This document shows positions 23,924-39,390 of a stretch of 64,000 nucleotides of DNA, piece by piece; the stretch's first letter is position 1; each line of letters starts with the position of its first letter. The notes beneath the pieces are model-generated. The model was not told the origin of the DNA. It saw nothing but the letters and a program-made list of their open reading frames with translations, and did no database searches. Origin of the DNA: Kutzneria viridogrisea. GTDB taxonomy: Bacteria; Actinomycetota; Actinomycetes; Mycobacteriales; Pseudonocardiaceae. Both the position numbers and the translations under genes were made by a program. The DNA lies in NCBI GenBank assembly GCA_014138725.1, contig JACJID010000004.1:1054001-1118000 (forward strand). The letters are read 5' to 3'.

Positions 23924-23997
23924 GCCCCCGTAGCCCAATTGGCAGAGGCAACGGATTCAAAACCCGTCCAGTGTCAGTTCGAATCTGACCGGGGGCA
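23924..23997 (+). tRNA. tRNA-Leu (anticodon CAA) with a short variable region
   Basis: A 74-base cloverleaf. The acceptor GCCCCCG pairs with CGGGGGC (23990-23996), discriminator A at 23997, D-arm GCC/GGC, anticodon stem ACGGA/CCCGT with an A-C mismatch at its last pair, loop TTCAAAA with anticodon CAA (23958-23960), variable region of only 5 bases, T-arm GTCAG/CTGAC with loop TTCGAAT. CCA is not encoded. CAA reads the leucine codon UUG, yet bacterial leucine tRNAs normally have a long variable arm. The gene stands between pdtaR and an accessory region, a common kind of insertion site. Confidence 0.88.
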
Positions 23998-24154
23998 CTC
24001 AACTGATCAAATACTTCTGCAGGTCAAACCAGGTCCAGTACGTGCCCCATGGAGGTGCTGTCAGCGGAGGTTTGGCGATACTGTGAAGGTCTCGGGGTTT
24101 GGTGAGTGCGCGGGTACCGGTGCTGCCGTGGCGGCAGTGGTAAGCGGCTCACCC

Positions 24155-24355: not shown

Positions 24356-24384
24356 TCGGGGCATCCGGGCTTCGCGGGCGGCAG

Positions 24385-25581
24385 TCAACGGCCGCCCAGG
24401 AGGTCCAGTGCCGCCTCGATGGGGTCCAGCTTGGGGTTACCGATCCCGAAGCTCTCGATCGCGCGGCGATGGAGGTCGGCCAGGGTTTGGGCGGCGGCAG
24501 CGGTGTCGCCACGACCGTGTTCGGTGGTAGCGCGCTGGATGGTCGCGGTGATGTCGGTATCAGTGAGGAAATCGTGCCGTTGCCGGGCGCGGAACGGCTG
24601 TGTGGCGCGCGTTCGGCTCTTGGCGGGCGCCTCCGGTGGACGGACCTTGTCCGGGGTGCGATAGGGAATCGTCACGTCGGGTTGGAGCACAGGATTGGGC
24701 TCGGGTGCCCCGTTGACGGGCAGGTACGGCTCCAGGGTGGTGAGCACGTCTCCGATCTCCGGCCTGTCCTCTATGTCCTTCTCCAACAAGCCCAGCGTCA
24801 GGCCCTCTAGATCGCTGGGCAGCCGGCTGCCGTGCCGTGACGGTGGTACCGGCGGGTCCTCTAGGTGCTGCTTTTCCAATGACTTCCCGCCTTCTTCGAT
24901 GAACGGCGGCCTAGCGGTGAGCAGGAAGTAGAATACGCAGCCTAGGCTATATAAATCGGATTGCACGACCTGCTCGCGGTTGCGGAACCGCTCCGGCGCC
25001 GCGTAAGCGTCGGTTCCAACGAAATTCCTGGTATACCTCGAGGCGTCCCCGTCCAACGGCAAGGCAATGCCGAAATCAATCACATAAACCACGCCGTTCT
25101 CGCCGACCATGAGGTTGTCAGGCTTCAAGTCACGGTGCAGGACCTTGTCCCTGTGGCAGGCGGCCAACGTCCTCGCGACGGACGTGCCGATCGCGGCGAA
25201 CTCGGTTCGCCTGGGCAGGTTGACCTTCCGATAACAGGTCAGCTTCTTTCCTTCAATGTAGGTCATCGCTATGAAGGGCACCGACCCGTGCTCACCGTCG
25301 CCGACCACTGCTGGGATGTTCGGGTGGTCGAGTTTGCGCAGCAACCGACCCTCTTGGGTGAACCTCTTCATGGTTCGTTCATAGGCACCGGGATCCAGAT
25401 CAACCGTTCCCGGCAACTGCGGGACCTTGACAACCACTTCCTTCCCTGACCGCAGGTCCCGCGCGAGGTAAGCGACCCCCATACCGCCCTCTCCAAGTTC
25501 CTCCCGCACCTGAAACTGGTGGCCGACAACGATGCCGGGAACCAGTCGCCGCCCCCGGGGCCTGTCCGCTCCACTCGCCAT
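24385..25581 (-). CDS. Cytosolic serine/threonine protein kinase
   Basis: A 398-residue Hanks-type kinase from ATG 25581; the frame continues upstream only over non-coding DNA and the divergent gene. Motifs: glycine loop GEGGMGVAYLARD (about 29-41), the ATP lysine in VVVKVPQLPG (about 48), catalytic loop HRDLKPDNLMV (about 149), DFGIALPL (about 167) and APERF. The region after the kinase domain (about 280-398) has no transmembrane segment; it is Pro/Arg-rich and ends in a helical part with TDITATIQRATTEHGRGDTA. There is no PASTA or other sensor domain. It is divergent from a four-gene pPIWI_RE operon with only 72 bases between the starts, so the two units probably share a control region. A part in sensing or toxic response of that defence system is an inference. 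Confidence 0.88.
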   Translation of the reverse strand: MASGADRPRGRRLVPGIVVGHQFQVREELGEGGMGVAYLARDLRSGKEVVVKVPQLPGTVDLDPGAYERTMKRFTQEGRLLRKLDHPNIPAVVGDGEHGSVPFIAMTYIEGKKLTCYRKVNLPRRTEFAAIGTSVARTLAACHRDKVLHRDLKPDNLMVGENGVVYVIDFGIALPLDGDASRYTRNFVGTDAYAAPERFRNREQVVQSDLYSLGCVFYFLLTARPPFIEEGGKSLEKQHLEDPPVPPSRHGSRLPSDLEGLTLGLLEKDIEDRPEIGDVLTTLEPYLPVNGAPEPNPVLQPDVTIPYRTPDKVRPPEAPAKSRTRATQPFRARQRHDFLTDTDITATIQRATTEHGRGDTAAAAQTLADLHRRAIESFGIGNPKLDPIEAALDLLGGR

Positions 25582-25653
25582 GGAAGCGAACTCTAGCCGA
25601 CTGAATCTCGCGATCCACGTAACTTTCCGGCGCTTTCGCCGATAATCACGTCG

Positions 25654-27282
25654 ATGAGGCCGGGAGAGCACAGGGGCACGCACCATCGGGATGGTACGGG
25701 GAGTCGAGGACAGGTGGTCCGCGTCAGCGCGACCGACGCCGGTTCCTCGGGCTGCCCTCAGGCGCTGGCGATCAAGGTGCGCCCAGCGTGGCGGGCCCGC
25801 GCCTATGGTGCTTCCGCGCTGTGCCACTTCACCTTGGGCCCCCTCATGGCCGCTCTCGACCGGGTCGAGTTCGCCGGACACGACGATGAGGCCGTCGTCG
25901 AGGAACTCCTGCAAACGCGAGGAGTATTCAGCTCCCGTGCGGCTCCTGCTCACCCTGGCCTGATTTCCTGGTCGGTCGAGGCTTTCCGCAACTACCGTGC
26001 CGCTTGGCGGACCCACCAGGCGACTGCTACCACTCGGTGCCCACGTCCCGTACGATCCGAGTGGGTGGTTGTGCATCACCGAGATCCCCCGGACCACCGT
26101 GATGTGCGCCGCTACGAACAGACCTGCTGGGGTCGCCGGTACCAGTCCGAGGACGGTTCCGTCCGGGAGATGTGGCTACTGGGTCTCACCACTCCGAAGG
26201 AGCGGCCCTCGGTCGTCTACGCGGCGGCGGCCAATGTCGCCGCGTTCGGCGGGCCGGCGTTACCGGAACGCGTGCGTGTGGTCGTGTTCGGGGCGATGTC
26301 GCCGGTCGCCGAGCAGTTCCCCGAATGGACCGTTGAGCAGGTTCGCCAGCGTGCTCAGAACGAGGTCGCGCCGAGACTCATCGCGGTCGTCGACGGCACT
26401 GAACGGCGAGCGGGTGGGGACTGTGCGCAGTGCATGCTGACGTCTGGGTGTGTCGCACTGCCCTCGGTCGACCTGTTGCCGGACGTCCCCGCCGTCCCCG
26501 GCCCAAAGCGAGCGCTCTCCGTCACTGACCTGCGACACTACCGGTCCTGCCCGGCGCGATACCACCTGCTGATGCAGCTGCACATCCGCGACGTCGAGAC
26601 CGTCGAGAGCCAGCCGATCGTCGTGGGCAGGGCCGTCGACACCGCCTTGCGGGATCGTCACACAGGTGCTTCCCAACACCGTCGGTGCGGGCCCGACCAG
26701 CCGTTGGACGGTGCCGTCACCGCGCTCTCCGAGGAGAGCCGCAGCACAGCGAGCCGGATGCTGGCCCAGCACTCCGCGCTATGCCCACTCCCCGACGTCG
26801 AGGAGCACGACGGCGAGCCGCGGAACCTCGTCGTCGTCCACGACGAGAGGCTGGGCGTGGTGTTCATCGCCGCTCCTGATCTCCTCTACCCGCGGTCGGG
26901 CGGTTGGGTGTGGCGGGAGACCAAGACCTCGATGCACAGGCTGCCCCGCGACCGCCCCCTGCTGCAGCAGGTTCCCCAGTTGGCTCTGGCGGTCCTGATG
27001 CTGGCTTCCGGGGCACTGGGGCGCGACGCCGCACGGTCCCGGGTCGAGCTCGAGCAACTGCGCCCGAACGGATGTGCCTTGGAGGAGTTGGACCCCGGAA
27101 ACCCAGTCGTCGTGGCGGAAGCCCGCGAGGTCATTGGCGGGATGGTGAGCCCGCTGCTGGCCGACACCGCCTACGAGCCGACACCCGGACGGGATTGCGC
27201 GGGCTGCGAGGTCCGCCGTTGGTGCGCGCCGGGTTCACAGTACGTGGCCGGGCAGGCAGGAGGCCCGCCTCGTGACCAGTGA
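25654..27282 (+). CDS. RecB/Cas4-like PD-(D/E)XK nuclease with Fe-S cysteines
   Basis: A 542-residue protein. The C-terminal half has the AddB/RecB/Cas4 nuclease layout: SVTDLRHYRSCPARYHLL (first Fe-S cysteine at about 299), VGRAVDTAL, the catalytic Asp in APDLLYP (about 409) and E-T-K in VWRETKTS (about 423-425), a Gln in QVPQLALAVLML, and the closing C-x2-C-x5-C in CAGCEVRRWC (about 515-524). That is the pattern of a 4Fe-4S nuclease that cuts single-stranded or processed DNA ends. The N-terminal half carries another C-x2-C-x5-C, CAQCMLTSGC (about 256-265), suggesting a degenerate duplicate. The start is ATG 25654 or GTG 25714. It is the first gene of the pPIWI_RE operon and its stop overlaps the next start by 11 bases. 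Confidence 0.75.
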   Translation: MRPGEHRGTHHRDGTGSRGQVVRVSATDAGSSGCPQALAIKVRPAWRARAYGASALCHFTLGPLMAALDRVEFAGHDDEAVVEELLQTRGVFSSRAAPAHPGLISWSVEAFRNYRAAWRTHQATATTRCPRPVRSEWVVVHHRDPPDHRDVRRYEQTCWGRRYQSEDGSVREMWLLGLTTPKERPSVVYAAAANVAAFGGPALPERVRVVVFGAMSPVAEQFPEWTVEQVRQRAQNEVAPRLIAVVDGTERRAGGDCAQCMLTSGCVALPSVDLLPDVPAVPGPKRALSVTDLRHYRSCPARYHLLMQLHIRDVETVESQPIVVGRAVDTALRDRHTGASQHRRCGPDQPLDGAVTALSEESRSTASRMLAQHSALCPLPDVEEHDGEPRNLVVVHDERLGVVFIAAPDLLYPRSGGWVWRETKTSMHRLPRDRPLLQQVPQLALAVLMLASGALGRDAARSRVELEQLRPNGCALEELDPGNPVVVAEAREVIGGMVSPLLADTAYEPTPGRDCAGCEVRRWCAPGSQYVAGQAGGPPRDQ

Positions 27283-28375
27283 CAACCAGGATGAGCACCT
27301 GCTCGGCGCGGTGGCGAGCGCTTTGGTGACGATCGACGAGCTCCGCGACCTGACCGTGTTCCAGATGCCCTATCCGGCGACGGTCCAGCGTGCTCTGGAT
27401 CGGATCGTGCTGCACTGCCTGCGCCGATACGCCCGCCCGCCCAAGTCCGTACCGGGGTTGGTCCGCTGGGGCTACGAGCGACACCTGGGAGGTTGGCCGT
27501 TGACGCTGCCCGACGGCGTCTACCCCGCAGACGGGTTCCTCGTCGACGCGGAGTCAGGTGCGCCGACCGCGCTCTGCCATGAGATCGCGCTCTGCGCGGA
27601 GACCGACAACCCACTACAGGAGGCATCGCGCCGGATGGCGACGATGACCGATCTCGCCAGCGAATACAGCCAGGCTCCGGCGTACGGCACGTTGCGAGGC
27701 GTGCTGGCGACGCACCCGGTGCTCACCAACGATCTGCTCAACAACGTGCGTTTTGCCAACAGGCTGGGTGCGCTGGACGAGCACCTGGGCGACTTCTACC
27801 ACCCGATCGGGCTTGAGTACGAGATTGACGGCGCGGTCTTCCCCTGTGCGAACTGCAGCACCCCGCTGCGTCTGACAGCCGCAGGCTCGTGGTGGTGCGA
27901 GCGGGAGGAGTGCGGGACGGGAGGCGCGGTGTCCCCCGGTGCTCCACTGGACTGGGATGCCAAGGTCTTGATGCAGATGGGCAGAAAACACCGGCAGTTT
28001 GTCTCCGGCCCGGGCAGAACGGTTCTGCGCATAGCGAACAGCCTGAAGCTACCCGGGGTGACGGTCAGGCGTTGGCCGGTGCACGGACCCGGCGACCTGC
28101 GGGTGGAGCTGCCCGGTGTACACGCGTGGACCGCGCTCATCGTCGATTGGCACAGCCCGGTACTGCTCGGCAGGGCAATCGCGGTCGCGATGTCCCGATA
28201 CGGCGCGGACACCGCGATCTGGGTCGTCGCCCAGTACAGGGTCGACGCCGACCCCGACTACCTACGGGTAGTCCGCGAGCACGCCACCGTGGCGACCGGA
28301 ACCCCGCAGGTGTGCTCAGAGGAGGAGTTCACTGACATGGTCCGCCGCCACAGCAAGGAGAGCGGGCATGCGTAG
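27272..28375 (+). CDS. pPIWI_RE-associated REase protein with zinc ribbon
   Basis: A 367-residue protein from GTG 27272 (AGGAGG 8 bases upstream). Residues about 188-215 hold a zinc ribbon, C-x2-C in FPCANCSTP and C-x4-C in WWCEREECG. Residues about 250-330 (KLPGVTVRRWPVHGPGDLRV, then HAWTALIVDWHSP) fit the restriction-endonuclease-like domain described for the pPIWI_RE three-gene island; I cannot assign the full D-(D/E)xK set with certainty. The N-terminal 180 residues are probably one of the island-specific domains. Function by context: a nuclease that acts with the DinG-like helicase and PIWI protein encoded next. It overlaps both neighbours (11 and 8 bases). Confidence 0.7.
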   Translation: MTSDNQDEHLLGAVASALVTIDELRDLTVFQMPYPATVQRALDRIVLHCLRRYARPPKSVPGLVRWGYERHLGGWPLTLPDGVYPADGFLVDAESGAPTALCHEIALCAETDNPLQEASRRMATMTDLASEYSQAPAYGTLRGVLATHPVLTNDLLNNVRFANRLGALDEHLGDFYHPIGLEYEIDGAVFPCANCSTPLRLTAAGSWWCEREECGTGGAVSPGAPLDWDAKVLMQMGRKHRQFVSGPGRTVLRIANSLKLPGVTVRRWPVHGPGDLRVELPGVHAWTALIVDWHSPVLLGRAIAVAMSRYGADTAIWVVAQYRVDADPDYLRVVREHATVATGTPQVCSEEEFTDMVRRHSKESGHA

Positions 28376-31300
28376 CAAGAAGTGGTACTCCGAGATCGCC
28401 GATGAGCTCAGGCAAACTAGGCTGAGCTTGCCGCTGGAGGTGCTGTGCCCGGTCGAGTTGGGCCTCACCCTCTTGCACCGGATCGACAAGGGCCAGCCGC
28501 CGACGTCGGTGTGGGCACTGCTGGGCGGTTACCCGTTCGCCCAGGTCGCAGGCCTGGCGGATAAGCCGGAGCAGCACTGGATGATCACCTGCGTCCGGCA
28601 CCGCCTGTGGCCCCTGCGCAGGCGGGGTGCATGGATCCAGGCGCTTCGGGATTACCAAGAAGTGGACTCCAGTCTCCGCGCCTTCCGGTTCGCCAAGGAC
28701 CGCGACTCGTTCGAGTGGACGGGGACGACCGCGTTGACCAAGCGGTTCGAGGTCTACGACCGGGCACTGGAAACGCTGCCCGACCTAGTCGATCGGCATC
28801 TCGCACCGGCGGGAGCAGGCCGCTACCACTATTTCGACCGCGACGAGCGCGTGGAGGTCGAGATCCCGGACGACATCGCGGACCAGCCGGGAACGTCCCC
28901 GCAGCACGACTTGACGGCCCGTACTGCGACGAACGGCGCACCCCTGGCCATATCCTGGGCCGAACTGGAGGAGACCGCCGCGTGGATGGATGGGTGCGCC
29001 GAGCAAGACGGGCGGGCCAACTGGCACACCAGTATCCAGTCCACCCGGCTGCTTGTCCGCGACTCGCACGGACACGATTTCATCGAAGACACCAAAGACA
29101 AAGTGCTGCGGCTCGACGGGCTCCTGCACGCGGTCGGCATGGTCGGGGTGGGGAAGAGCACGCTGATGAAGGTGCTCGCGGTCTGGGCGGTCCGCCGGAA
29201 CGAGCCGCTGCGGATCACGCTGGTGGTGAGTGATGTCGCCGATCAGCTGCGCACTGTGGAGGAGCTGCGCGGTTTCCTCGGCGAGCGAGCGGTCGTGCCG
29301 ATAATCGGGTACTCGACACGCGAGCAGCACGTCGAGGGTCTGCACCGCAGGTTGGCGGCGAAAGGCCATCTGCTGTTGGCCGGGCACCACGAAGACAACG
29401 GGTTCGGAAACCTGAGCACCGCCTGCCCGCTCGACGCCCTCCGCGTCACGGAAAGGCCGGTGCGGTCGGTCGACGCACCGTGCTCGCGGCTCTACGACGC
29501 GGACGGCCATACCGACGACCGGCGGCGTCCGCGCCCGTCGGGCTGTCCGCTGTGGCACAGGTGCCCGAAGCACAGCGCTGCTCGCGATCAGGTCGGCGCA
29601 GGCGTGTGGATCGCCACGATGGCGTCGCTGGTCATGAGCCCGGTCCCCTCCGAGCTGAGCGGGGTGCGCCTGCGCCAACTCGAACTGGCATGCCTGCGCA
29701 GCGACATCATCGTCGTCGACGAAGCGGACCGGGTGATGATGAACCTGGACATGGTGTTCGCGCCTACCGCCACGCTCGTGTCCCGCGGTCCTCATTCGTG
29801 GCTAGACACCCTGCACACGCACAACATCCGCGAGCTCTCTCAAGCAGGCCGCCTGCAGCTGTCCAACCGCAAGGTGCGGGACTGGGAGGTGGCGCTGTCC
29901 GTGGTCACCAGCGCCACGAACCTGCTCTACTCGATGCTGATCGCGGACAAGGACCTGCGGGAGTGGGTGGGGATCGAGTACTTCAACTCCTGGACACTGC
30001 AGGGGAAGATCCTGCCCGAGCTGTTTCCGGCAGACGACTCAGCGGACGACGGCGAGTCCGCCACCGAGCCGGAGAACCCAGCAGCCCCGGCGGACGACCC
30101 CAGGTCACCGCGCAGCCAGGTTGAAGTGGCGTTCGACCAGTTCCGCGACGACCCGCTGGGCGATGACGGCCCCTACGGCACCGTGGCCGACCGCTTGGCC
30201 GCAGCGACGCAGGACCTGCTGCACACGCTGAACCCGCAGGCCGCCGCAAGACGGTTGGGCGTGGTGCTCAACGAGCTGCGGGCGATCGGCACGGACACCG
30301 AGCCCAGCCCAGCAGCAGAGGACGACTCCCTCGTGCGCAAGCTGGAGTTCACGTTGCTGCTGTCGGCCCTGCACCACCGGCTGGACCGGCTGACCTACCT
30401 GTGGCCGCAGGTCGAGGACGCGATGCGACTGGACTCCACGGACAACGAGCTGGTCCGCAGACCGCCGATGGACTACATGCCGCTCGTGCCGGAGTCCCCC
30501 ATGGGCAACGTCCTGGGCTTTCAGTACGTCGTCGACGAGCAGGACGCCACAGGTGACGGGATGACTGGAACGCTGCGCTTCTTCCGGTGCACCGGGGTCG
30601 GCCGGGAACTGCTGTTCTCGCTTCCCGCACTGGGTGCCGACACCGCTGCGGGCCGCGGGGGCCCGCACGTGCTGCTGCTGTCGGGTACCAGTTGGGCCGG
30701 GACATCCACCCGAGCGCACGTCGTCATCCCGGTTGGCGCAGTCCTCCGGCCGTCACCCGAGGCCGAGCAGCGGTTGCGAGACACCGTTTTCACTACGCGG
30801 TTCTTCTACGACGACGACGGGGAGCCCATCAGCCTCTCCGGGCAGTCCCGCAAGGTCCGGCCGTCGGTTCTGCGGGCCCTGGTGGACAAGCTCGGCAAGG
30901 CAGGGCCGAGCGGGATGTCGCCGCTACAGGAGGAGATCCAGGCGGTCGAAGACCCCAACAGGCACCGCGCCCTGCTTCTCGTCGGCAACTACCAGGACGC
31001 CCAAGCCGCAGCGGACCAGTTGAACGCCATGCCCGAATGGCACGGCCACGTCAAGGCGCTCGTGGCGGACAACGCCGACCTCACCGAAGCAGTCAGCGGC
31101 GGCGCGGATGACCTCGGTCGGGCCGGGGTGATACGCCGCGGGGACGTGGGGCTCTTCGCCACCGACTCCATGGCCCGGGTACTCGTCGCGCCAATGCTCG
31201 CCATCGAACGAGGGCACAACATCCTCAACCACGAGACCAACGAGGCGGCGCTCGGCGTGGCGCTGTTGCTCACCAGGCCGCATCCCGTGCCCACCGACGT

Positions 31301-31877
31301 CGGCCTCTCCGTGCTCGCTGTCAACGACTGGGAGAGCCGCTTCACCCGCGGCCTATACCAGCCGGCGGATTCCGAGCCTGCGTCGCTGACCGAACTAGTG
31401 ACCGCGCACGACTCACTCGACGCCGCCGCCCAGGAGTTTCGGGCCATGGCGCGCAGCAGGTGGGGGCGGCTGCTGACCCGCCGGTACGCGTACTCCGCGC
31501 TGAGCCGGGAAGAGATGCGGTCCTTCGCTTGGGACCAGTTGGTCGTCCTCTGGCAGGTGATCGGCAGACTCGTCCGCGGCGGGGTCGCCGCCCGGGTCGT
31601 GTTCGTCGACGCGCAGTTCGCCCGCAGGCGCGCTGCGGCGGAGGCACCCGTGGCCCGGCGGTCAGCCGTGCGGCGCGACCACGTCCGGACCAGCCTGCTT
31701 TACGGCATTCGGGAGGCCCTGCGCCCGTACTTCGCCCCGAGGCCGGACGACGACGGGGTCGACCTGGCGGACGCGCACCTTGCGGATCTGCTTTACAAGC
31801 CCGTCTACCTGGCCTTGTGCGAGATGCTCGACCAAGTCGACCTGAATAGCGCTGTCACCGACTCCGGGGAGGGGTGA
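28368..31877 (+). CDS. DinG/XPD-like Fe-S helicase of the pPIWI_RE island
   Basis: A 1169-residue protein. Walker A is GVGKSTLMKV (about 260). The Fe-S cluster region follows, with cysteines at about 352 (TACPLD), 371 (APCSRL), 393 and 398 (GCPLWHRC), as in XPD/DinG helicases. Walker B is IIVVDEADRVMM (DEAD, about 450) and motif VI is LWQVIGRLVRGG (about 1062). The first 240 residues look like an island-specific N-terminal domain. DinG-type enzymes unwind 5'-tailed DNA and R-loops, which fits a guide-dependent system acting on RNA/DNA hybrids. The start ATG overlaps the upstream stop by 8 bases and has AAGGAG upstream; the next gene begins 3 bases after the stop. Confidence 0.82.
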   Translation: MRSKKWYSEIADELRQTRLSLPLEVLCPVELGLTLLHRIDKGQPPTSVWALLGGYPFAQVAGLADKPEQHWMITCVRHRLWPLRRRGAWIQALRDYQEVDSSLRAFRFAKDRDSFEWTGTTALTKRFEVYDRALETLPDLVDRHLAPAGAGRYHYFDRDERVEVEIPDDIADQPGTSPQHDLTARTATNGAPLAISWAELEETAAWMDGCAEQDGRANWHTSIQSTRLLVRDSHGHDFIEDTKDKVLRLDGLLHAVGMVGVGKSTLMKVLAVWAVRRNEPLRITLVVSDVADQLRTVEELRGFLGERAVVPIIGYSTREQHVEGLHRRLAAKGHLLLAGHHEDNGFGNLSTACPLDALRVTERPVRSVDAPCSRLYDADGHTDDRRRPRPSGCPLWHRCPKHSAARDQVGAGVWIATMASLVMSPVPSELSGVRLRQLELACLRSDIIVVDEADRVMMNLDMVFAPTATLVSRGPHSWLDTLHTHNIRELSQAGRLQLSNRKVRDWEVALSVVTSATNLLYSMLIADKDLREWVGIEYFNSWTLQGKILPELFPADDSADDGESATEPENPAAPADDPRSPRSQVEVAFDQFRDDPLGDDGPYGTVADRLAAATQDLLHTLNPQAAARRLGVVLNELRAIGTDTEPSPAAEDDSLVRKLEFTLLLSALHHRLDRLTYLWPQVEDAMRLDSTDNELVRRPPMDYMPLVPESPMGNVLGFQYVVDEQDATGDGMTGTLRFFRCTGVGRELLFSLPALGADTAAGRGGPHVLLLSGTSWAGTSTRAHVVIPVGAVLRPSPEAEQRLRDTVFTTRFFYDDDGEPISLSGQSRKVRPSVLRALVDKLGKAGPSGMSPLQEEIQAVEDPNRHRALLLVGNYQDAQAAADQLNAMPEWHGHVKALVADNADLTEAVSGGADDLGRAGVIRRGDVGLFATDSMARVLVAPMLAIERGHNILNHETNEAALGVALLLTRPHPVPTDVGLSVLAVNDWESRFTRGLYQPADSEPASLTELVTAHDSLDAAAQEFRAMARSRWGRLLTRRYAYSALSREEMRSFAWDQLVVLWQVIGRLVRGGVAARVVFVDAQFARRRAAAEAPVARRSAVRRDHVRTSLLYGIREALRPYFAPRPDDDGVDLADAHLADLLYKPVYLALCEMLDQVDLNSAVTDSGEG

Positions 31878-31880
31878 CCC

Positions 31881-34757
31881 ATGGCCCAGCGCTACACGGC
31901 GATCCGCCGGGCGGCATACGAGCCCACCGGGGACCAAGACGGACTCACCGTCGGCTTTCACACGTTGGAGTTCCCCGAACAGGTCGCCGCACGGGTGCTC
32001 GACCTCTACAACCTGACCCGGGAGGGCCGTGCCCGTGCGCTGGTACCGCCGACCCGCCGCTTGGATTCCCTACTCCAGGCACTGGATATGCGCCTCGGGG
32101 TACTGCCGCGCTCGGTCGCGGCCGACGCGGGACCACGGACGTGGCTGTATTGCCCGGTGGACGCGCCCGACGAGCCGCTGCCGGTCCCGGTCCTGTTGCG
32201 GGTCCTGGATTACTGGATCGAGGAGCTGCAGCCCGGACCGAAGCACGCGGAAGCGGTCGCCGAGGTGTGCGAAGCGCTACGCGACCACGCACCTGTCTGG
32301 CAGCGAAAGGAGGTCCCGCTGCTGCGGTGCGAGCTCAGCGGCGGCGGGACCGCACAGCCAGCGGGCGTGCAGTACCTGCTCGCAACGCAGCACTTCGCCC
32401 AGCGTATCCAGGACCTAGAGCCCTACAACTCCGGCGAGCACTTGCTGCGGTTCCGCTCCGTGGCACGCCAAGCCCGTCAGCAGGGTGCGGAGCTGATGTC
32501 CCAGCCTCTCCCCTATGACGACGAGCACAAGCGGCGATGGTGGTTCTCGGTGGTCGCCACCGTCACCCTGCACACGGTGCCGTTCCACCCGCGTCCCCGG
32601 GTGCACCTGCGTTTCGGCGTGCGTCGGTGGGCGACACATCCCGAGCCGAAAACCGGGCTGCTGCGCCTGGGTTTCCGCCGGGGCAGCGCTGTGTACCTGC
32701 GCCCGCTGGCACCATGGCTTCCCGACGTCCCGGTCAGCGACCGGTACAGCGTGGCGCATGTGGTCAAACGCGGAGACGGGCATGTGTGGCGGACCGGGGA
32801 CCCCGCGCTGCTGATGGCGCGGCTCGCACTTCGCACCCGGCCCTTCCCGGAACCTGCGAGCCTGCTCAGCGAACCGCGACGGTGGTTCGAGGGCGAGCGG
32901 GGGGTCGACGCGTTGGTCGTGCACAACACGCACATGGGTGAGCACGGTGTCGGCGCGGGCTTCATGTCCCACGAGCGGTCGCGCTTGGTTGAGTGGGCTG
33001 AGCAGGCACTAGTACCGGACCTGGTCCGCGTCGCCGACCTCACCCGGTCACCGCTACCCGCCAACAAGCCGGCCAATGCCCGCCAAAGCGGGTCCCGCGA
33101 GCGGACCGCGGCGGCCAAGGTCATACTCCAACGCACCCGACGCGCGTCGCTGGCCACACTCTACGCGGAGTGGTCCGGCACACCGGAGTTCACCCCCCGA
33201 CTGCTGTGGCGCTCCGAGCAGACCCGCGACGCGGCCGTAGCCGCCCTCGCCGCAGTACTCGGCCTCAACGGGGATGGCGGCGCGAGCCAGGTGAGCGCGC
33301 AGGCCCACGACCGCAGCGGCCGCGGCCACCCCGTTGTGCTGCGGTGGCAGACACCGGAGCTGGTGGTGACGCTGAGCTGCCTGCGCATGGACAACGGATT
33401 GGCGGACAGCCTGGGGGTGGTCCAGGAGCCTCCCAAAGGCCGGGCGGACCGGGCCGCCCAAGCGGTCCGCAAGCGCCGTGCGGACATGGGTGAGTTCCTG
33501 GCCAAAGACGGCGCGAACGCGGCGGTGCCATCGGTCGCGATCGTGGAGATCCCGGGCAAGACCGTGTTCAGCAGCATGAACGATCCCAAGTTCGCGCTGC
33601 GGCTCGGCGCGGCGGACAGCGGGGTCGTGACCCAGTTCATCGTCTCCCCTATGTCTTCCCGCGCGGTGAAGTCGTTGGCCGCCGCGGCCGAGTCCTCCTG
33701 GGTGGACGCGATCCGGCAGCTGGGTGCCGTGGTCGTTCCGCTCACCGACGTTCCGGCCGGTCTACCCGCCCGGACGCAGTACCTCGCTGTCTGGATGGCG
33801 ACGAAAGCTCGCGGCAGCACCGCGTACTCGGCCAAAGGGAAGTTTCCGGTCGCCGTGCTGGTGCGCCCCGGGGCCGACGGACCGGACGCGGTGCTGGGCT
33901 GGGACGCCGAGGCGGTCGCTGGGATGGGGGCATGGACGGCGTACCCGCGCTACCTGACCCGGCTCCCTGCCCTCGCTGCGGTCTCCGACCACGACCTGGC
34001 CGACGCGGACGACCACGACGCACCGTGGTTCGACTGGTCACGGAACCTGGATGAACAGCGGGCCGCGACGGAGGAGTTCCTGCACCGGGTGCTCTCCTCG
34101 GAACACGTGCGCGGAAGACCCACCGTTCTCCTTGTCGACGCGCAGAACATCAGGTTCCTGTGGACGTGGGTGCAGGACGGCCGGGTGGAGCGGGACCTCA
34201 TCCGCACCGGCCTCGCGCCCGCAGGCCGCCCGAACCCCTGGCTACGGCTGGTGAGACTGCGCACCGGGGACCAGCAGGAGACTCCGCAGTGGTGGGGTCT
34301 CGCCAGTTCCGAAGGGGTGAACGGTCTGCCCGCCAACCTGTGGGAGAGCGGTGGACAGGAGGACGACAGGGTCTTCTACAGCACCACCCCCAAAGCCTCC
34401 ACCGCCCAAAGTTCTGCGGTGGAGGCGCACAAGCTGAACCGCAGGAAGCTCCGCAAGGGCGAACGTGCGGGTCAATGGACTATCGATGTCGACCAACCCG
34501 CATGGAACCCCGACCTCGTGGAGATCGCGGTGCTCAGCTGCCACCTCGGCGACGGCGACGATCCACACGCCTTGGCAATGGCCGTCCACCAGCTGCGGCA
34601 GGCCCCGGACTACCGTGACGCGCTCCGCCGACCGCTGCCGCTGCACCTCGCCCAGAAGGCACAGGAGTACATCCTGCCGATGAGGAAAGCGGACGAGGAG
34701 GACGCACCCGACCCCGAGTCGCCGGACGATTCCACCGCCGGGTACTCCGGGAACTGA
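31881..34757 (+). CDS. Prokaryotic PIWI protein of the pPIWI_RE family
   Basis: A 958-residue Argonaute-like protein. The N-terminal about 400 residues correspond to the pPIWI_RE X module, about 420-560 to a MID-like domain and about 570-930 to the RNase H/PIWI domain. Family marks: VLLVDAQNIRFLW (about 748), the arginine region LRLVRLRTGD (about 792), DRVFYSTTPKAST, and the glutamate region LVEIAVLSCHLGDGDDP (about 881). The family takes its name from conserved R and E residues in the PIWI fold. The classical DEDX nuclease tetrad is not obvious, so it may bind rather than cut its target. Predicted to recognise RNA/DNA hybrids, with the linked helicase and nucleases restricting invading DNA. 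It is the last gene of the operon, 6 bases from the convergent regulator. Confidence 0.82.
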   Translation: MAQRYTAIRRAAYEPTGDQDGLTVGFHTLEFPEQVAARVLDLYNLTREGRARALVPPTRRLDSLLQALDMRLGVLPRSVAADAGPRTWLYCPVDAPDEPLPVPVLLRVLDYWIEELQPGPKHAEAVAEVCEALRDHAPVWQRKEVPLLRCELSGGGTAQPAGVQYLLATQHFAQRIQDLEPYNSGEHLLRFRSVARQARQQGAELMSQPLPYDDEHKRRWWFSVVATVTLHTVPFHPRPRVHLRFGVRRWATHPEPKTGLLRLGFRRGSAVYLRPLAPWLPDVPVSDRYSVAHVVKRGDGHVWRTGDPALLMARLALRTRPFPEPASLLSEPRRWFEGERGVDALVVHNTHMGEHGVGAGFMSHERSRLVEWAEQALVPDLVRVADLTRSPLPANKPANARQSGSRERTAAAKVILQRTRRASLATLYAEWSGTPEFTPRLLWRSEQTRDAAVAALAAVLGLNGDGGASQVSAQAHDRSGRGHPVVLRWQTPELVVTLSCLRMDNGLADSLGVVQEPPKGRADRAAQAVRKRRADMGEFLAKDGANAAVPSVAIVEIPGKTVFSSMNDPKFALRLGAADSGVVTQFIVSPMSSRAVKSLAAAAESSWVDAIRQLGAVVVPLTDVPAGLPARTQYLAVWMATKARGSTAYSAKGKFPVAVLVRPGADGPDAVLGWDAEAVAGMGAWTAYPRYLTRLPALAAVSDHDLADADDHDAPWFDWSRNLDEQRAATEEFLHRVLSSEHVRGRPTVLLVDAQNIRFLWTWVQDGRVERDLIRTGLAPAGRPNPWLRLVRLRTGDQQETPQWWGLASSEGVNGLPANLWESGGQEDDRVFYSTTPKASTAQSSAVEAHKLNRRKLRKGERAGQWTIDVDQPAWNPDLVEIAVLSCHLGDGDDPHALAMAVHQLRQAPDYRDALRRPLPLHLAQKAQEYILPMRKADEEDAPDPESPDDSTAGYSGN

Positions 34758-34763
34758 AGCACC

Positions 34764-37541
34764 TCAGGCACTGCCCTCGGCCGTCTCCTTGATCCGGCTT
34801 CTCGCAGCGTTGAGTATCCGCTTGTCCTCAGGCTCGAGTATCTGCTTGTCCTGGGAGTCCTTGGGCTGGAGTTGCTCGTAGATGGCCACACAGCTCAGCA
34901 GCGCGTCTCGTTCGTCCTCAGCGCGCCCCACTGCCCGGTAGGCCTGGGCCAGCCCGTCGAGCACCCGCGCCTCGTTGATCGGCGCCCTCGAGTCGATATA
35001 GCAGGCACGTGCCGCCTCTCCGTGGGCGATTGCCTCGGTGTAGCGCTTCAACTGCATGTGGCAACTCAGCAGGACACGATGCAGGGCCGCCCGGTTGTAC
35101 GGGGTGCTCGCCCGCACCATCAGCTCGACGGCGAAAGCCTCCCGACTGAGCACGCGCTCTGGTTCCCCCAACTCGAGGTGGCAATGGATCTCGGTGGGAA
35201 GGGCGGCCGCCACGCCGCGCTCGTCCGCCATGTCCGCGTAGAGACGTCCGGCGGTCGTCGCGTGGTGGCGCGCCGCCTCCCACCGGCCCATGTCCTCTTG
35301 GAGGACACCCATCTGCTGGTGCCCGTGGGCCACTTCGAGCGGGTCGCCGATGCGTTCGGCGAGGGTGATCGAGGTCGTCAGATTGCGCTCCGCTGCACCG
35401 GTCTTGTGCAGCTTGCGTTGGATGTTGCCCAGCACCCGGCGGCAGACGGCTTGGTACCGGATGCGTTCCCGCTCGGCCAGCTCGTCTTTGTCGATCTCGC
35501 ACGCCGAAACCAGCAGGCGTTCCGCGGTGAGCCAGGGGCCGTTGCGGGTGTGGTAGCAGCACAACGCGAGTGGCAGACGCCACCGGTAAGCTGTGAACGG
35601 TCGGAAATCCAACGAGTCCAGTACCGCGACCAGTGTGTCGTGCTCGCGGTCGAACCATTGCGTCCCGCCGGCCTCGTCCGCAGGGGCGGGAAGCGGAGCG
35701 CCTTCGTCCGCAACAAGGTCGTCCGGGAGTTCCCGGCCCGAACGTAGTGCGCGGTCGCACTGCCGGGCGGCAGTCAACAACCACCCCAGCAGTCGCTCCC
35801 GTACTTCGGCCACTTCCGATTCCGACCGTTCCTCGGCCGCGCGTTCCAAGGCGAACGCCCGGACCAGGTCGTGGAGACCAAACCGGTCGTCCGCCAACGG
35901 GTCCAGCAGGTTGCCGCGCACGAGTTCATCGACGGCGTCTTCTGCAGTATGCTTCGGAAGTCCGGACAGGAAGACGACGACATCCCGGTGGACGGTGGGA
36001 CCGGGGTAGATCGCGATGACTTGTAGCACCTTGGCCGCTCCACGTGAAAGCGGCGCGTAGGACAAGCTCAGTGAATCACGCAACGCCGTCTCCCCATCGG
36101 GTTTCGCCCCCACCAACGCGGCCGCCGAGCCCAGTCTCGCCAACAACCTCTCCAGGGTGGAGCCCTGGTTCAGGCGGGCCTGCGCAACGACGAGCTTGAC
36201 CGCGAGCGGAATTCCGCCGCACGCTTCCATGAGCTTGCGGGCCGCGAAGGGCTCCGCCGTAACCCGAGCGGTACCGACAGCATCGCGCAACACCTCTAAG
36301 CACGAGTCGAGTGTGATCGGGCGCAAAGGCAGCACCCGCGCGCCCACAACGGCTGGGGCGGTGACGGCCGCCCGCGTCGTGATGACCGTGCGGCTGTGCT
36401 CGCCCGCCGCCACCAGGTCCGCGGCGTGCCGGTGGTCACGGGCGTTGTCGATGACGACCAACACAGCGCGGGTGTTCACCGCTGTCCGGTACGCAGCCAG
36501 CACGTCGCCACCGCCCAGGCCAGTTCCCGGGATACCGAGAGCCTTGGCGAACCCCTTCAGCACGGCCGCAGGCTCCACCGGCCCCGTAGGGGAGAAGCCC
36601 CGCAGGTCGGCGAAGAGGACCCCGTCCGGGAAGTGCTCGACCACACCGTGCGCCCAATTCACCGCCAGCTCCGTCTTGCCCATGCCGCCCAGCCCGTAGA
36701 CGGTGACGACCCGGACCTCGCTGTCCGGGGCGGTCAACTCTCCCAGCACGGCGAGTTCGAAATCGCGATCGCGCAACTCTGCTCGGACGGGCGGCAGCTG
36801 GTGCGGCGATCCCGCCGGCACTGCCTTGGACACCAGCCGCGCCTCGGCGACGAGCGACTTGGCCTCCACACGCAGCGCGGCGTGCAGTGGACCCGACTCT
36901 CTGGGCGCCTCTTCCCGTCTACGCAGATCATCGATGATCGCCTGCGCCTGACCGCACCGGGACCACATGTGCCACAACGCAGACCGGATCTCATCGTCGT
37001 CCACGAACAGCTCGTCGGCACGCTCCGCGTGGGCGGCGGCCTGTTCCTCACCTTCCTGTTCCGCGCAGAGCCGGATCAGCTCCAGGAAAGCCCGACGTCC
37101 CTCGGCACGCAGCTCCACCGTCTCTCGACTCACCCACCGCGGTTCCAAGTTGGCCAGCGGAGGACCTTGCCACAACTCCGCCGCCGCGAAGAGAAGAGGC
37201 AGCTTCTGGTGCGCTAGCAGCCCTTTCACTCCGACGACCTTGTCACGAAAACGCCAGAGATCGACCTCCTCCCGCTTCAACGCCAGTCGTAGAACTGAAC
37301 GCTCATTCTTCTTCACCATCTCGACACCCGCGCAGGCCCGCAGCTTCGCGCCGTAGGAACGCAGGGTGGCTGGGGATTTCGTCCCGAAGCGGCTGGCCAG
37401 TTCGTCGTAACCGACTCTGCCGCCGGAGACCGCTGCGATCGCCAGGACCGTGAGCAGGCGCGGCTCCAACCGCACCGGCATGCCGTCCACCAGCAGTCGC
37501 ACGGCACCAAGGACCTGCAGGTCGATCACGGGCTCGCCCAT
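34764..37541 (-). CDS. AfsR/SARP-type regulator with NB-ARC and TPR domains
   Basis: A 925-residue regulator from ATG 37541; the frame runs further up but only over the divergent gene. Residues 1-95 form an OmpR-like DNA-binding domain (IDLQVLGAVRLLVDGMPVRL), 95-240 a bacterial transcriptional activation domain, 265-560 an NB-ARC ATPase (VYGLGGMGKTELAVNWAH at about 284, then AVLVVIDNARD, the sensor TVITTR and the GxP motif ACGGIPLAVKL). From about 640 to the end are TPR-like helical repeats. This is the AfsR layout, which couples NTP hydrolysis or ligand sensing to promoter activation. It is divergent from the GT-B-like gene with 133 bases between starts, so that unit is its most likely target. 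It ends 6 bases from the PIWI gene. Confidence 0.85.
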   Translation of the reverse strand: MGEPVIDLQVLGAVRLLVDGMPVRLEPRLLTVLAIAAVSGGRVGYDELASRFGTKSPATLRSYGAKLRACAGVEMVKKNERSVLRLALKREEVDLWRFRDKVVGVKGLLAHQKLPLLFAAAELWQGPPLANLEPRWVSRETVELRAEGRRAFLELIRLCAEQEGEEQAAAHAERADELFVDDDEIRSALWHMWSRCGQAQAIIDDLRRREEAPRESGPLHAALRVEAKSLVAEARLVSKAVPAGSPHQLPPVRAELRDRDFELAVLGELTAPDSEVRVVTVYGLGGMGKTELAVNWAHGVVEHFPDGVLFADLRGFSPTGPVEPAAVLKGFAKALGIPGTGLGGGDVLAAYRTAVNTRAVLVVIDNARDHRHAADLVAAGEHSRTVITTRAAVTAPAVVGARVLPLRPITLDSCLEVLRDAVGTARVTAEPFAARKLMEACGGIPLAVKLVVAQARLNQGSTLERLLARLGSAAALVGAKPDGETALRDSLSLSYAPLSRGAAKVLQVIAIYPGPTVHRDVVVFLSGLPKHTAEDAVDELVRGNLLDPLADDRFGLHDLVRAFALERAAEERSESEVAEVRERLLGWLLTAARQCDRALRSGRELPDDLVADEGAPLPAPADEAGGTQWFDREHDTLVAVLDSLDFRPFTAYRWRLPLALCCYHTRNGPWLTAERLLVSACEIDKDELAERERIRYQAVCRRVLGNIQRKLHKTGAAERNLTTSITLAERIGDPLEVAHGHQQMGVLQEDMGRWEAARHHATTAGRLYADMADERGVAAALPTEIHCHLELGEPERVLSREAFAVELMVRASTPYNRAALHRVLLSCHMQLKRYTEAIAHGEAARACYIDSRAPINEARVLDGLAQAYRAVGRAEDERDALLSCVAIYEQLQPKDSQDKQILEPEDKRILNAARSRIKETAEGSA

Positions 37542-37674
37542 CGCGATCAAGTGAACCACACCTCGTCCGCTGCCCGGATTGCCCGTCCCAACTCCCCACG
37601 CTTTCCCCACGGTTCCCCCACGCCCAGCCACCACGCTGTCCTTGTCAGAATCAGCGCCCAGGAGGGAAGGCAAG

Positions 37675-38832
37675 ATGGGATTGCGGAATCCGCACCGCTT
37701 GACGCCGTGGTGGGCAGCCGCGGGCGGTGTGCAGACGTATGGGGTACGACGGGTGGTGCTGGTGGTCGTGCACAGCGTCGCGGCGGGCGAGCGGGTACTT
37801 GCGGCCGCCCGCGCAGTCGAGGGTCTGCCAGGCGTCCAGGTCGTGTTCACCCAGTCCCCCGGACCCGCCGACAACCGGGTGGCGGACTTTCTCATCGGCA
37901 CTGACGCGCTCACCACCCCGTGGGAACGCGCTGCACTCGAGCGGTTTGACCTGGTGATCGCAGCCAGTCCGACCAGCGTCGGCACGCTGCGGGGAGCGTT
38001 GCTGCTGCTGCCCGAGGTATCCACGGATGGTGAAATCGTCGACCACAACGGCAGGCGGTGTGTCCCCGCCCTCAACGGCCTGCTCCGCCAACGGGCGGTC
38101 GACCCCGACACGGTGGTCATCGGCCTGCCGCACGACGCCGCCGTCGCCGCGCTCCAAGCCGCCTCGCCAGGCACCAGGCGACACGCCGTCGTCATCGGCG
38201 ATCCCGCGTACGACTACCTGCTCGACGCCCTCGCCCACCGGGACGCCCATCGCGAGCGCCTGGGGGTCCACCGCGACCAGCGGTTGGGCATCGTGTTGTC
38301 GACCCGGGGACCAGACTCGCTGCTCGGCAGGTCACCGGCCCTGTTCGGGCGGATCGCCGCCGATCTGCCGACATCAGGCGACCGGTTGATCTGCCACCTG
38401 CACCCCGACGTGTGGGTACGGCATGGCAGACGCCAAGTGCTGGCGTGGGCCGGGCCACTGGTGCGGGCCCGAATGCGGTTCCTGCGTCTCGGGCAGGGCT
38501 GGCAGGTCCCTATCGCGGCAGCGGACTACGTCGTGGGCGACCACGGTGCGCTGACCGCCTATGCCGCAGCCACCGGGAAACCGGTGTACTTGGCCAACCC
38601 GGTGCCCTCCACCGCGCCGGACTCGCTGGGTGAGGCCGTCGCCCGGTACGGCAGGTTCCTGGATCCGGCTGTGTCACTAGGGGCTCAATTTGACTGGACG
38701 GCGCGTCCCAGCGCCTCGGTAGTCCGACGCGTCACCTCCGTCCCGGGCAGGTCGGCCGACCTGCTGCGTACGGAGTGCCTCCGTCTGCTGCGGATCACAG
38801 ACTCGGCCCGACAAACGGTCGACGACCTCTAG
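37675..38832 (+). CDS. GT-B-like protein resembling CDP-glycerol glycerophosphotransferases
   Basis: A 385-residue protein from ATG 37675 with GGAGGGAAGG four bases upstream. There is no signal peptide. The C-terminal half has features of TagB/TagF-type GT-B enzymes: CHLHPDVWVRHGR (HP motif), then AADYVVGDHGALTAYAAATG followed by KPVYLANP. The N-terminal part (GVRRVVLVVVHSVAAGERVL) looks like the first Rossmann domain. Database entries for similar actinobacterial proteins are often mislabelled as translation initiation factor 2. The donor and acceptor are unknown. It is followed 16 bases later by a 26-residue peptide ORF and is divergent from an AfsR-like regulator. Confidence 0.6.
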   Translation: MGLRNPHRLTPWWAAAGGVQTYGVRRVVLVVVHSVAAGERVLAAARAVEGLPGVQVVFTQSPGPADNRVADFLIGTDALTTPWERAALERFDLVIAASPTSVGTLRGALLLLPEVSTDGEIVDHNGRRCVPALNGLLRQRAVDPDTVVIGLPHDAAVAALQAASPGTRRHAVVIGDPAYDYLLDALAHRDAHRERLGVHRDQRLGIVLSTRGPDSLLGRSPALFGRIAADLPTSGDRLICHLHPDVWVRHGRRQVLAWAGPLVRARMRFLRLGQGWQVPIAAADYVVGDHGALTAYAAATGKPVYLANPVPSTAPDSLGEAVARYGRFLDPAVSLGAQFDWTARPSASVVRRVTSVPGRSADLLRTECLRLLRITDSARQTVDDL

Positions 38833-38848
38833 GAGAGGAGAAACCAAT

Positions 38849-38929
38849 ATGCCCGTCATCCAGACCTTCCCCCGTTCTGGCGGAGGTGGCGGCACCGGCG
38901 ACCGCGCCCAGTCTAGGGAAAGTGGATGA
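38849..38929 (+). CDS. 26-residue peptide ORF behind the GT-B-like gene
   Basis: An ATG at 38849 with an excellent ribosome binding site, AGGAGAGGAG, 8 bases upstream opens a frame of 26 codons ending in TGA. The product starts MPVIQTFPRSGGGGGTG and ends DRAQSRESG: a hydrophobic head with Thr, Phe and Pro, a run of five glycines and a polar tail. It lies 16 bases downstream of the GT-B-like gene and is too short for automatic callers. The strong initiation signal and the Gly-rich hinge suggest a real peptide, possibly a substrate of the adjacent enzyme or a ribosomally made precursor, but I see no known leader or recognition sequence. Confidence 0.5.
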   Translation: MPVIQTFPRSGGGGGTGDRAQSRESG

Positions 38930-38936
38930 GGTTGTG

Positions 38937-38969
38937 CTGGGCCCGGCCGGTGATTCTAGTCGGGCCCGG
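38937..38969 (+). terminator. Possible terminator after the peptide ORF
   Basis: An inverted repeat with core GGGCCCG (38939-38945) and CGGGCCC (38961-38967), extended by one G-T pair and one C-G pair, with a 15-base loop, starts 8 bases after the peptide stop. No clear U-run follows. Confidence 0.4.
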
Positions 38970-38976
38970 TTCGTCG

Positions 38977-39270
38977 TCAGCCGGGGTTGAAGATGCGGTA
39001 TAGGAAGCGACGGGCCCGCCCTTCTTGAGGGTTGCCGATCACCTGCGAACTGGGGCCACCCTTGACGATAGGGCTGGCGTCGAGGAAGAGGACTTGGTCG
39101 GCTACTTGTTCGGCGAAATGTATTCGTGGGTGACGACGGCGGTGGCGAGGTCTTTGATGACAGACATGACTTCGTCGACGATCGACCTCGCCGCAGGCCA
39201 GGCCGTCGGCCTGCAACGGGCGTCAACCTGAGGATGACGTTCTCGGCGTTCATCGTGCACCACAGGTCGG
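38977..39270 (-). pseudogene. Decayed amino-acid ABC transporter ATP-binding gene (GlnQ-like)
   Basis: The minus strand encodes the end of a polar amino acid ABC ATPase in broken frames. One frame gives FAEQVADQVLFLDASPIVKG, followed by GPSSQVIGNPQEGRARRFLY. The frame just upstream gives VDEVMSVIKDLATAVVTHEY, and near 39,240 a third gives CTMNAENVILRL. Together they match the order of a GlnQ-type C-terminal half (H-loop THE, then ADRV-F-D-G and the GNP-RTRRFL tail), interrupted by at least one frameshift and internal deletions. No P-loop remains. It is a gene fossil at the border between the accessory island and the NRPS cluster. Confidence 0.7.
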
Positions 39271-39390
39271 ACGGCGGCGGCGCAGGAGGACGTCAACCGT
39301 GGCGGAAACCAGCAGTTCACGGCGGGCATGGGTTCGTGTGGATGCTGTACGAGCCGGCCCGGGGGCACTCGCTTGGGGCGATCCGTGTTC

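Follow-up and report, generated by a model that had tools for sequence, protein, structure and literature searches.

Genes of the pPIWI_RE family are known as standalone genes or as a three-gene island, in which a Y-domain protein with a restriction-endonuclease (REase) fold, a DinG-like helicase with a Z domain and a PIWI protein with X, MID and RNaseH domains follow one another in strict order with overlapping or closely adjoining ends (Burroughs, Iyer and Aravind 2013; PMC3702460, available excerpts). PADLOC-DB 2.0.0 (2023) holds the models PprPDDEXK, PprRE, PprDinG and PprPIWI, whose source was not found in the literature searched, and a four-gene form with PprPDDEXK is already catalogued there, hence not new. 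The current study concerns a locus of this four-gene kind in Kutzneria viridogrisea, located in a stretch of 64,000 nucleotides, here called the window (GCA_014138725.1, contig JACJID010000004.1, positions 1,054,001-1,118,000, forward strand), together with a divergent Ser/Thr protein kinase and a STAND regulator resembling AfsR. It is read here as a PIWI-RE defence island with one live nuclease and a kinase/regulator branch of the AfsK/AfsR type, a reading given an even chance of being correct. The sequence itself shows which genes are present, where the unit ends, that it recurs, which active-site residues it keeps or has lost, and the repeats; guide use, cutting, phosphorylation, activation and defence are predicted activities.

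The core in the window agrees with the three-gene island in content, order and spacing, its three genes lying tightly spaced on one strand, and all four Ppr models match strongly and together. Compared to the three-gene island, the window adds an Fe-S nuclease in front, while the kinase, the regulator, a protein designated F8 and a small peptide travel along; its REase moreover lacks the active site, although the family definition does not demand that site and the fold match stands. Compared to the Ppr models, the kinase hits, among the matches listed (25 of 36), kinases of other systems, e.g., PD-T4-6 and mad6, while no PADLOC model picks up the regulator at 1e-5.

The kinase and regulator invite comparison with the AfsK/AfsR/AfsS cascade of Streptomyces, in which AfsK is one of several kinases that phosphorylate the transcription activator AfsR; regulators of the SARP type recognize direct repeats spaced at 11 or 22 bp (PMC10936776, available excerpts). 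The window likewise holds a Ser/Thr kinase, an NB-ARC-TPR protein with a match to the AfsR profile, direct repeats with a period of 11 bases and, as a likeness of presence only, a gene for a small peptide close by. It differs in that the set is tied to a defence operon, F8 sits between repeats and peptide, the kinase lies across the core from the regulator rather than beside it, and the AfsR equivalog cut-off is missed. In other bacteria, one DinG-like protein carries a kinase-like domain as a fusion and a second one carries an Argonaute-like RNase H domain (PMC11981726, available excerpts); these likewise join a DinG-like helicase with kinase and PIWI-type folds and so point towards the tie seen here, but they are single fused proteins, likened here by description, and PIWI-RE is not named in those excerpts. 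A link between PIWI-RE and a kinase was not found in the open literature, of which excerpts were available, preprints and most subscription papers lying outside the search.

The kinase and its partners across pPIWI_RE loci

Of the genomes searched for pPIWI_RE_X, 26 of 397 from the order have a match, as do 67 of 346 from the family, 62 of 246 from one genus in another family and 6 of 396 from the phylum, the sample being uneven in that the family, this genus and the order were over-drawn; the six other Kutzneria genomes surveyed gave no match. A total of 135 regions was read (133 fetched, the region of Frankia sp. QA3 and the window), with genes called by an in-house codon score. Nuclease and core occur together in 82 of them, 47 have the core, or its visible part, but lack the nuclease, a single region has PIWI alone, and five have the nuclease without PIWI. 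The 129 core loci include some that look broken (L118, L187) or are cut (L140 and L162 among others), and all were counted as found; in L084, L140 and L193, three of the 47 loci without nuclease, an upstream gene may be out of sight because a contig end lies within ~1.1 kb. Strong nuclease matches (E < 1e-40) number 20 in the 397 order genomes, 15 of them beside PIWI. In five genomes (L077-L081, with L077 a short contig) a PprPDDEXK-family nuclease occurs with no PIWI, RE or DinG gene within the fetched region, and may have another role or belong to another system.

A kinase gene lies directly upstream of the core, divergently and within 400 bases, in 49 of the 82 four-gene loci, compared to none of the 47 loci without nuclease, while in a fiftieth kinase locus, L177, a methyltransferase gene is placed between kinase and core. 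With the nuclease present in 82 of 129 core loci and the kinase in 49 of these 82, neither is confined to this genome, and the idea that the kinase is an accident of this genome was dropped, since gene order and divergent kinase recur in others. Position and orientation of the kinase are constant in the 49 loci, which come from three of the genome groups surveyed plus Frankia. In the loci without nuclease, a kinase was found within 6 kb in four of 47 (none in the divergent slot) and the regulator label in three of 47, this label being a profile of NB-ARC/TPR proteins whose hits include at least one with a different N-terminus (L074, HTH_31). Gene distances of the kinase and of the regulator correlate with those of DinG at 0.94 (n=50; the L167 kinase used may be a second, downstream one) and 0.86 (n=33), respectively, with none of 499 shuffles as high, and those of the nuclease at 0.92. 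On a DinG tree covering 126 of the 129 loci, the kinase needs two changes and so does the nuclease, which makes both mostly vertically retained traits rather than products of many separate gains.

The partner of the kinase follows a solid rule. Among the 50 kinase loci, an AfsR-like STAND regulator is present in 33 and an N6-adenine DNA methyltransferase in 16, never both, and L063 is cut by a contig end. The methyltransferase, found beside the kinase in L155 (791-2788) and 15 further kinase loci, was confirmed by Pfam (N6_Mtase) for three proteins and assigned by in-house profile for the remainder; the 2013 description of pPIWI_RE stresses, in available excerpts, the missing methylase gene (PMC3702460). 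The pairing of kinase and methylase resembles MAD6 and MAD2 of the methylation-associated defence system MADS, at a similarity below cut-off and for these two components only, while the partner in the window is AfsR-like instead; the window kinase reaches 138.5 bits against the MAD6 equivalog cut-off of 460.

Within the flanking genes, 53 of 1233 match the in-house kinase profile. A C-terminal signature following the kinase domain, D[P/V]Txx(Y/F/L)R-like, is present in all 44 gene-called slot kinases and in the window kinase (five further slot kinases were not gene-called), and among the eight other kinases only in two second kinases touching a core; its chance rate was 40 of 390 unrelated proteins. 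These second kinases (320-321 amino acids), in L166 and L167, lie directly behind the PIWI gene.

Elsewhere the divergent slot is occupied by other genes. In 13 loci a fusion of caspase (Peptidase_C14) and DEAD/DEAH helicase of ~1013-1053 amino acids forms an alternative module there (e.g., L075:14161-17241 and L087:15006-18047, Pfam having been run for two), with a SEFIR-domain protein in 10 of the 13. A divergent four-gene cluster, C12-C15, lies by PIWI-RE cores in L180 (54-5013) and eight more loci; C15 is an SF1-like helicase/AAA protein, and the other three have no Pfam match.

Catalytic state of the core proteins

The PD-(D/E)XK active site of the Fe-S nuclease is retained as D409 in 85 of 86 aligned rows and as E422 and K424 in all 86. 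Ten cysteines are invariant in these rows, i.e., two complete C..CxxCx5C sets of the Fe-S type plus C345 and C377, together with H336 and H373. When its halves were aligned as profiles, they matched over 81 columns at 72% probability (E 3e-5, a single comparison) with both CxxCx5C sets in register, while 20 column-shuffled controls stayed at or below 1.4%; this likely reflects a doubled domain whose N-terminal half is dead. A search of the nuclease profile against PDB sequences gave no match up to E 1.

The REase of the window carries L289 and V291 at positions usually held by Asp and Lys, and retains D275. Its site (Asp, Asp/Glu, Lys) is intact in all 45 three-gene rows and in 47 of the 49 other four-gene loci, and lost in 32 of the 33 kinase-plus-regulator loci, the window included, compared to two of these 49 and none of the 45. 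The sole kinase-plus-regulator locus with an intact site is L106, where the preceding Glu is lost. Judged by these residues, loss of the site in this lineage is solid, as is the association of the STAND form with a predicted dead REase. Loci with a lost site group into two clades of the DinG tree, and since an active site once dead is hard to regain, two losses would be the simplest account. An earlier note on this DNA had proposed an enlarged system with two nucleases and a signalling protein; the association with the kinase has held up, while the second live nuclease has not, given the replaced Asp and Lys, and the AfsR-like partner and its exchange for a methyltransferase had been missed.

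The presumed zinc ribbon of the REase protein is well conserved (C192 in 127 of 127, C195 in 126 and C214 in 125 rows), and the helicase cysteines of Fe-S type (C353, C372, C393 and C399) are invariant in all 126 rows. In the PIWI protein, the predicted first RNase H strand has no Asp in the window and most relatives, according to alignment columns, while D753 is present in the window; lacking the first catalytic Asp, the protein is probably not catalytic. Catalytic residues are kept in only a subset of pPIWI_RE proteins (PMC3702460, available excerpts). R789 (90 of 94), E881 (91 of 94) and other Arg/Glu columns are conserved, and may include the residues behind the RE name. The pattern of retained residues argues with moderate confidence for a single live nuclease, the Fe-S PD-(D/E)XK protein.

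Regulator, repeats and limits of the mobile unit

The regulator matches the NCBIfam AfsR profile at 1.8e-51 over residues 57-874, with 175 bits against a cut-off of 1430, and by this score it is a relative of AfsR rather than AfsR itself. The combination of SARP, NB-ARC and TPR parts with a nearby Ser/Thr kinase is found here, NB-ARC and TPR being recognized by Pfam and the SARP-type N-terminus predicted only via the AfsR profile, from residue 57. Below cut-off, the regulator also resembles NCBIfam TPR proteins of systems of the type making ribosomally synthesized and post-translationally modified peptides (HaaT 2.6e-42, FxSxx 3.6e-11).

Between regulator and F8, a period of 11 or 12 gives the best direct repeat in all 11 loci examined (of 13 F8 loci). 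In front of the regulator gene, 22.5 of 33 loci have their best repeat at period 11 and four of 33 at period 12 (ties shared), compared to 9% and 17% of 642 control upstreams; strong 11/12-base repeats are present in 20 of the 33 and in 37 of the 642. The kinase-nuclease gap of 16 methyltransferase-type or cut loci gave no repeat signal (0.6 and 2.5). The repeats are, with moderate confidence, a predicted SARP-type operator, and the probable targets of the regulator are its own promoter and that of F8 and the peptide. F8 has no match in Pfam or NCBIfam. A Gly-rich peptide follows it in 10 of the 13 F8 loci (the window, L032, L103, L104, L105, L107 and L123-L126), ending TGDR-like in six and TADSR-like in four; the peptide has no match in NCBIfam. 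At 11 places outside islands where an F8-like gene and its 1.5-kb upstream flank were checked, a divergent regulator of window type was found twice and a Gly-rich peptide never, so the pairing of F8 with an AfsR-like gene exists outside the island too.

The limits of the unit emerge from comparison with Frankia sp. QA3, the single relative found via the PIWI protein and a member of what we take to be another order, in which case the block has moved between orders. A single unbroken blastn alignment of 14.6 kb begins at the stop end of the kinase gene and stops near the end of the peptide gene; it comprises the kinase, the four core genes, the regulator, F8 and most of the tiny peptide gene. 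Nearly the same block recurs in two more genomes (L103, matching 24376-38945 of the window at 80.7%; L104, 24390-38967 at 78.1%). Window and Frankia are 74% identical in the kinase and 77% in the regulator, compared to 38% and 32% for the best-scoring paralogues in the same genome (short, lower-scoring regulator matches reach 38-39%). On these alignments, the unit is a horizontally moving island of seven genes and a peptide gene.

In five of six other Kutzneria genomes, matches to the left flank end exactly at the 3' end of the tRNA-Leu gene (23998), and right-flank matches do not adjoin the tRNA, so that the location agrees with a variable site of insertion. A search for a copy of the tRNA end as attachment site gave only a match of 12 bases, at 39359, which is at chance level. 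The island of L103 is flanked by a direct repeat of 137 bases (3012-3148 and 19100-19236, 96% identical), and a related stretch lies at 39192-39368 of the window, just right of the island; together they are a possible trace of mobility. In plasmid records the nuclease has two matches at 22-30% identity and PIWI five partial ones; viral contigs gave six pattern matches to a 22-row nuclease alignment, with no relative among them.

The open reading frames bear out the gene coordinates of the earlier note, as well as its overlaps of 11 bases (nuclease/REase) and 8 bases (REase/helicase), the helicase-PIWI gap of 3 bases and the 72 bases between kinase ATG (25581) and nuclease start (25654). Its three-gene pPIWI_RE core and its Fe-S RecB-like nuclease in front are upheld by the profile matches in Table 1. 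Its view of the nuclease as a new addition is overtaken by the catalogued four-gene form, and its five-gene unit ending at 34757 proved too short, as the conserved block reaches 38904.

Table 1. Features in and beside the island, in window positions.
Feature	Position	Strand	Evidence or remark
tRNA-Leu (CAA)	23924..23998	+	ARAGORN
Mobile unit extent	24372..38904	.	blastn, one uninterrupted homology to Frankia sp. QA3, 80.2%
Ser/Thr protein kinase	24385..25581	-	Pfam Pkinase 1.3e-40; HRDLKPDN and DFG present
PprPDDEXK nuclease	25654..27282	+	PADLOC PDLC02423 6e-121; Pfam PDDEXK_1 4.5e-23
pPIWI_RE Y + zinc ribbon + REase-fold protein	27272..28375	+	Pfam pPIWI_RE_Y 6.2e-49, pPIWI_RE_REase 1.2e-31
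pPIWI_RE Z + DinG-like helicase	28368..31877	+	Pfam pPIWI_RE_Z 6.2e-54; PADLOC PprDinG 1.5e-240
pPIWI_RE protein (X, MID, RNaseH)	31881..34757	+	Pfam pPIWI_RE_X 3.9e-119, RNaseH_pPIWI_RE 2.6e-78, MID_pPIWI_RE 3e-30; PADLOC PprPIWI 1.5e-243
AfsR-like regulator, NB-ARC (STAND ATPase) + TPR	34764..37541	-	Pfam NB-ARC, TPR_12
Three direct repeats, 11-base period (CTCCCCACG / TTCCCCACG / TCCCCCACG)	37592..37622	.	between regulator and F8; SARP-operator-like
F8, 385-amino-acid protein	37675..38832	+	divergent from regulator; present in 13 surveyed loci
26-residue peptide gene, ..GGGGGTGDR..	38849..38929	+	Gly-rich, directly after F8

The nuclease start may be 25714 rather than 25654, as the gene caller picked the former and the PADLOC match spans residues 34-525. 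A longer kinase reading frame (24385-26097) is unlikely to be a gene, since it overlaps the nuclease. To the right of the island, two very long reading frames of 4625 and 2400 amino acids (42880-63963, minus strand) perhaps encode megasynthases.

Proposed working and competing explanations

It is proposed that PIWI, carrying a guide, and the DinG-like helicase would recognize and open RNA/DNA hybrids of invading DNA. Because PIWI and REase have probably lost catalysis, they would serve as recognition and scaffold parts and the Fe-S PD-(D/E)XK nuclease would do the cutting. The divergent kinase would phosphorylate the AfsR-like STAND protein, as AfsK does AfsR, and the phosphorylated regulator would act at the 11-base-period repeats that precede its gene and, divergently, those of F8 and the peptide, so that the output would be partly transcriptional (F8 and peptide) rather than a second nuclease. 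The relay from core through kinase to regulator, like the role of F8 and the peptide, is only weakly indicated. A bolder proposal, held as doubtful, is that a PIWI-RE restriction system was twice turned into signal-relay immunity, the REase dying where an AfsR-like STAND protein joined the kinase; in the window type, recognition by PIWI and helicase would pass through the kinase to the STAND activator, with F8 and the Gly-rich peptide as an effector pair.

Several observations weigh against the proposed defence island with its kinase/regulator branch. The kinase-plus-regulator loci form two clades and the kinase changes only twice on the DinG tree, so that few independent events underlie the counts, and the regulators of the window and L064 are only 30% identical, so the two regulator groups may be separate recruitments. 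An NB-ARC/TPR match lies within 6 kb of four kinase-less four-gene loci, three of which keep the REase site. F8-like proteins occur in 25 of 60 genomes, including elsewhere in that of the window and in five of the genus without a pPIWI_RE_X match, and 56 stretches in the genome of the window match the regulator; regulator and F8 may therefore be hitchhikers. As for the repeats, shuffles reached the observed score at any period in 13 of 200 cases for L104 and 15 of 200 for L124, the loci are related, and the kinase-nuclease gap of 31 AfsR-type loci has no 11-base signal (period 11 and 12 best in 3.7 and 2.4). The absent PIWI Asp is an alignment-based observation, and an AlphaFold2 model of the nuclease, built from the window and Frankia sequences only, has a pLDDT (predicted local distance difference test) of 31.6 and lends the fold no structural support.

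An ordinary four-gene PIWI-RE defence operon, which the kinase and AfsR-like gene merely keep silent until needed, taking no part in sensing or effect, would agree with the activator function of AfsR (PMC10936776, available excerpts) and with the 32 of 82 four-gene loci that lack a kinase, a count that also speaks against the branch proposed here and implies that the core presumably works alone. This explanation is nevertheless unlikely: the promoter gap of the core operon has no SARP-type repeats, which speaks against the regulator being simply a switch of that operon, the kinase pairs with a methyltransferase instead in other loci, and inactivation of the REase tracks the kinase-plus-regulator form, which mere expression control would not lead one to expect.

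Defence-island clustering might also have brought kinase and partner, STAND protein or methylase, into the island as a second, independent defence module. The likeness of kinase and methylase to MAD6 and MAD2 would suit such a module, as would the use of the same slot by the caspase-helicase fusion (13 loci, 10 with SEFIR) or C12-C15 (nine loci), but position and orientation of the kinase are kept in 49 loci and its correlation with DinG resembles that of the nuclease, and this origin is considered a rather poor prospect. A housekeeping role outside defence appears highly improbable. Loss of PIWI-RE in P. stutzeri raises ciprofloxacin sensitivity and affects cell division, and a role in replication or repair was proposed there (PMC10991935, available excerpts), yet presence of the family is patchy in the genomes surveyed. 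The block transfer, presumably between orders, and the variable site at the tRNA are likewise at odds with housekeeping.

PIWI-RE systems are widespread and have been little tested experimentally, and the island suggests that they may run by a signalling circuit, not by DNA cutting alone. The survey yields a testable rule, namely that the kinase is partnered either by a STAND protein resembling AfsR or by a DNA methyltransferase and that a dead REase accompanies the STAND form. The unit itself, at 14.5 kb, is compact, has clear ends, is movable and lends itself to dissection one gene at a time. Should the kinase-STAND branch act in immunity, it would link an Argonaute-like sensor to a type of regulator familiar from antibiotic production, and if the relay holds true, a prokaryotic Argonaute-type sensor would be wired to a kinase-STAND cascade.

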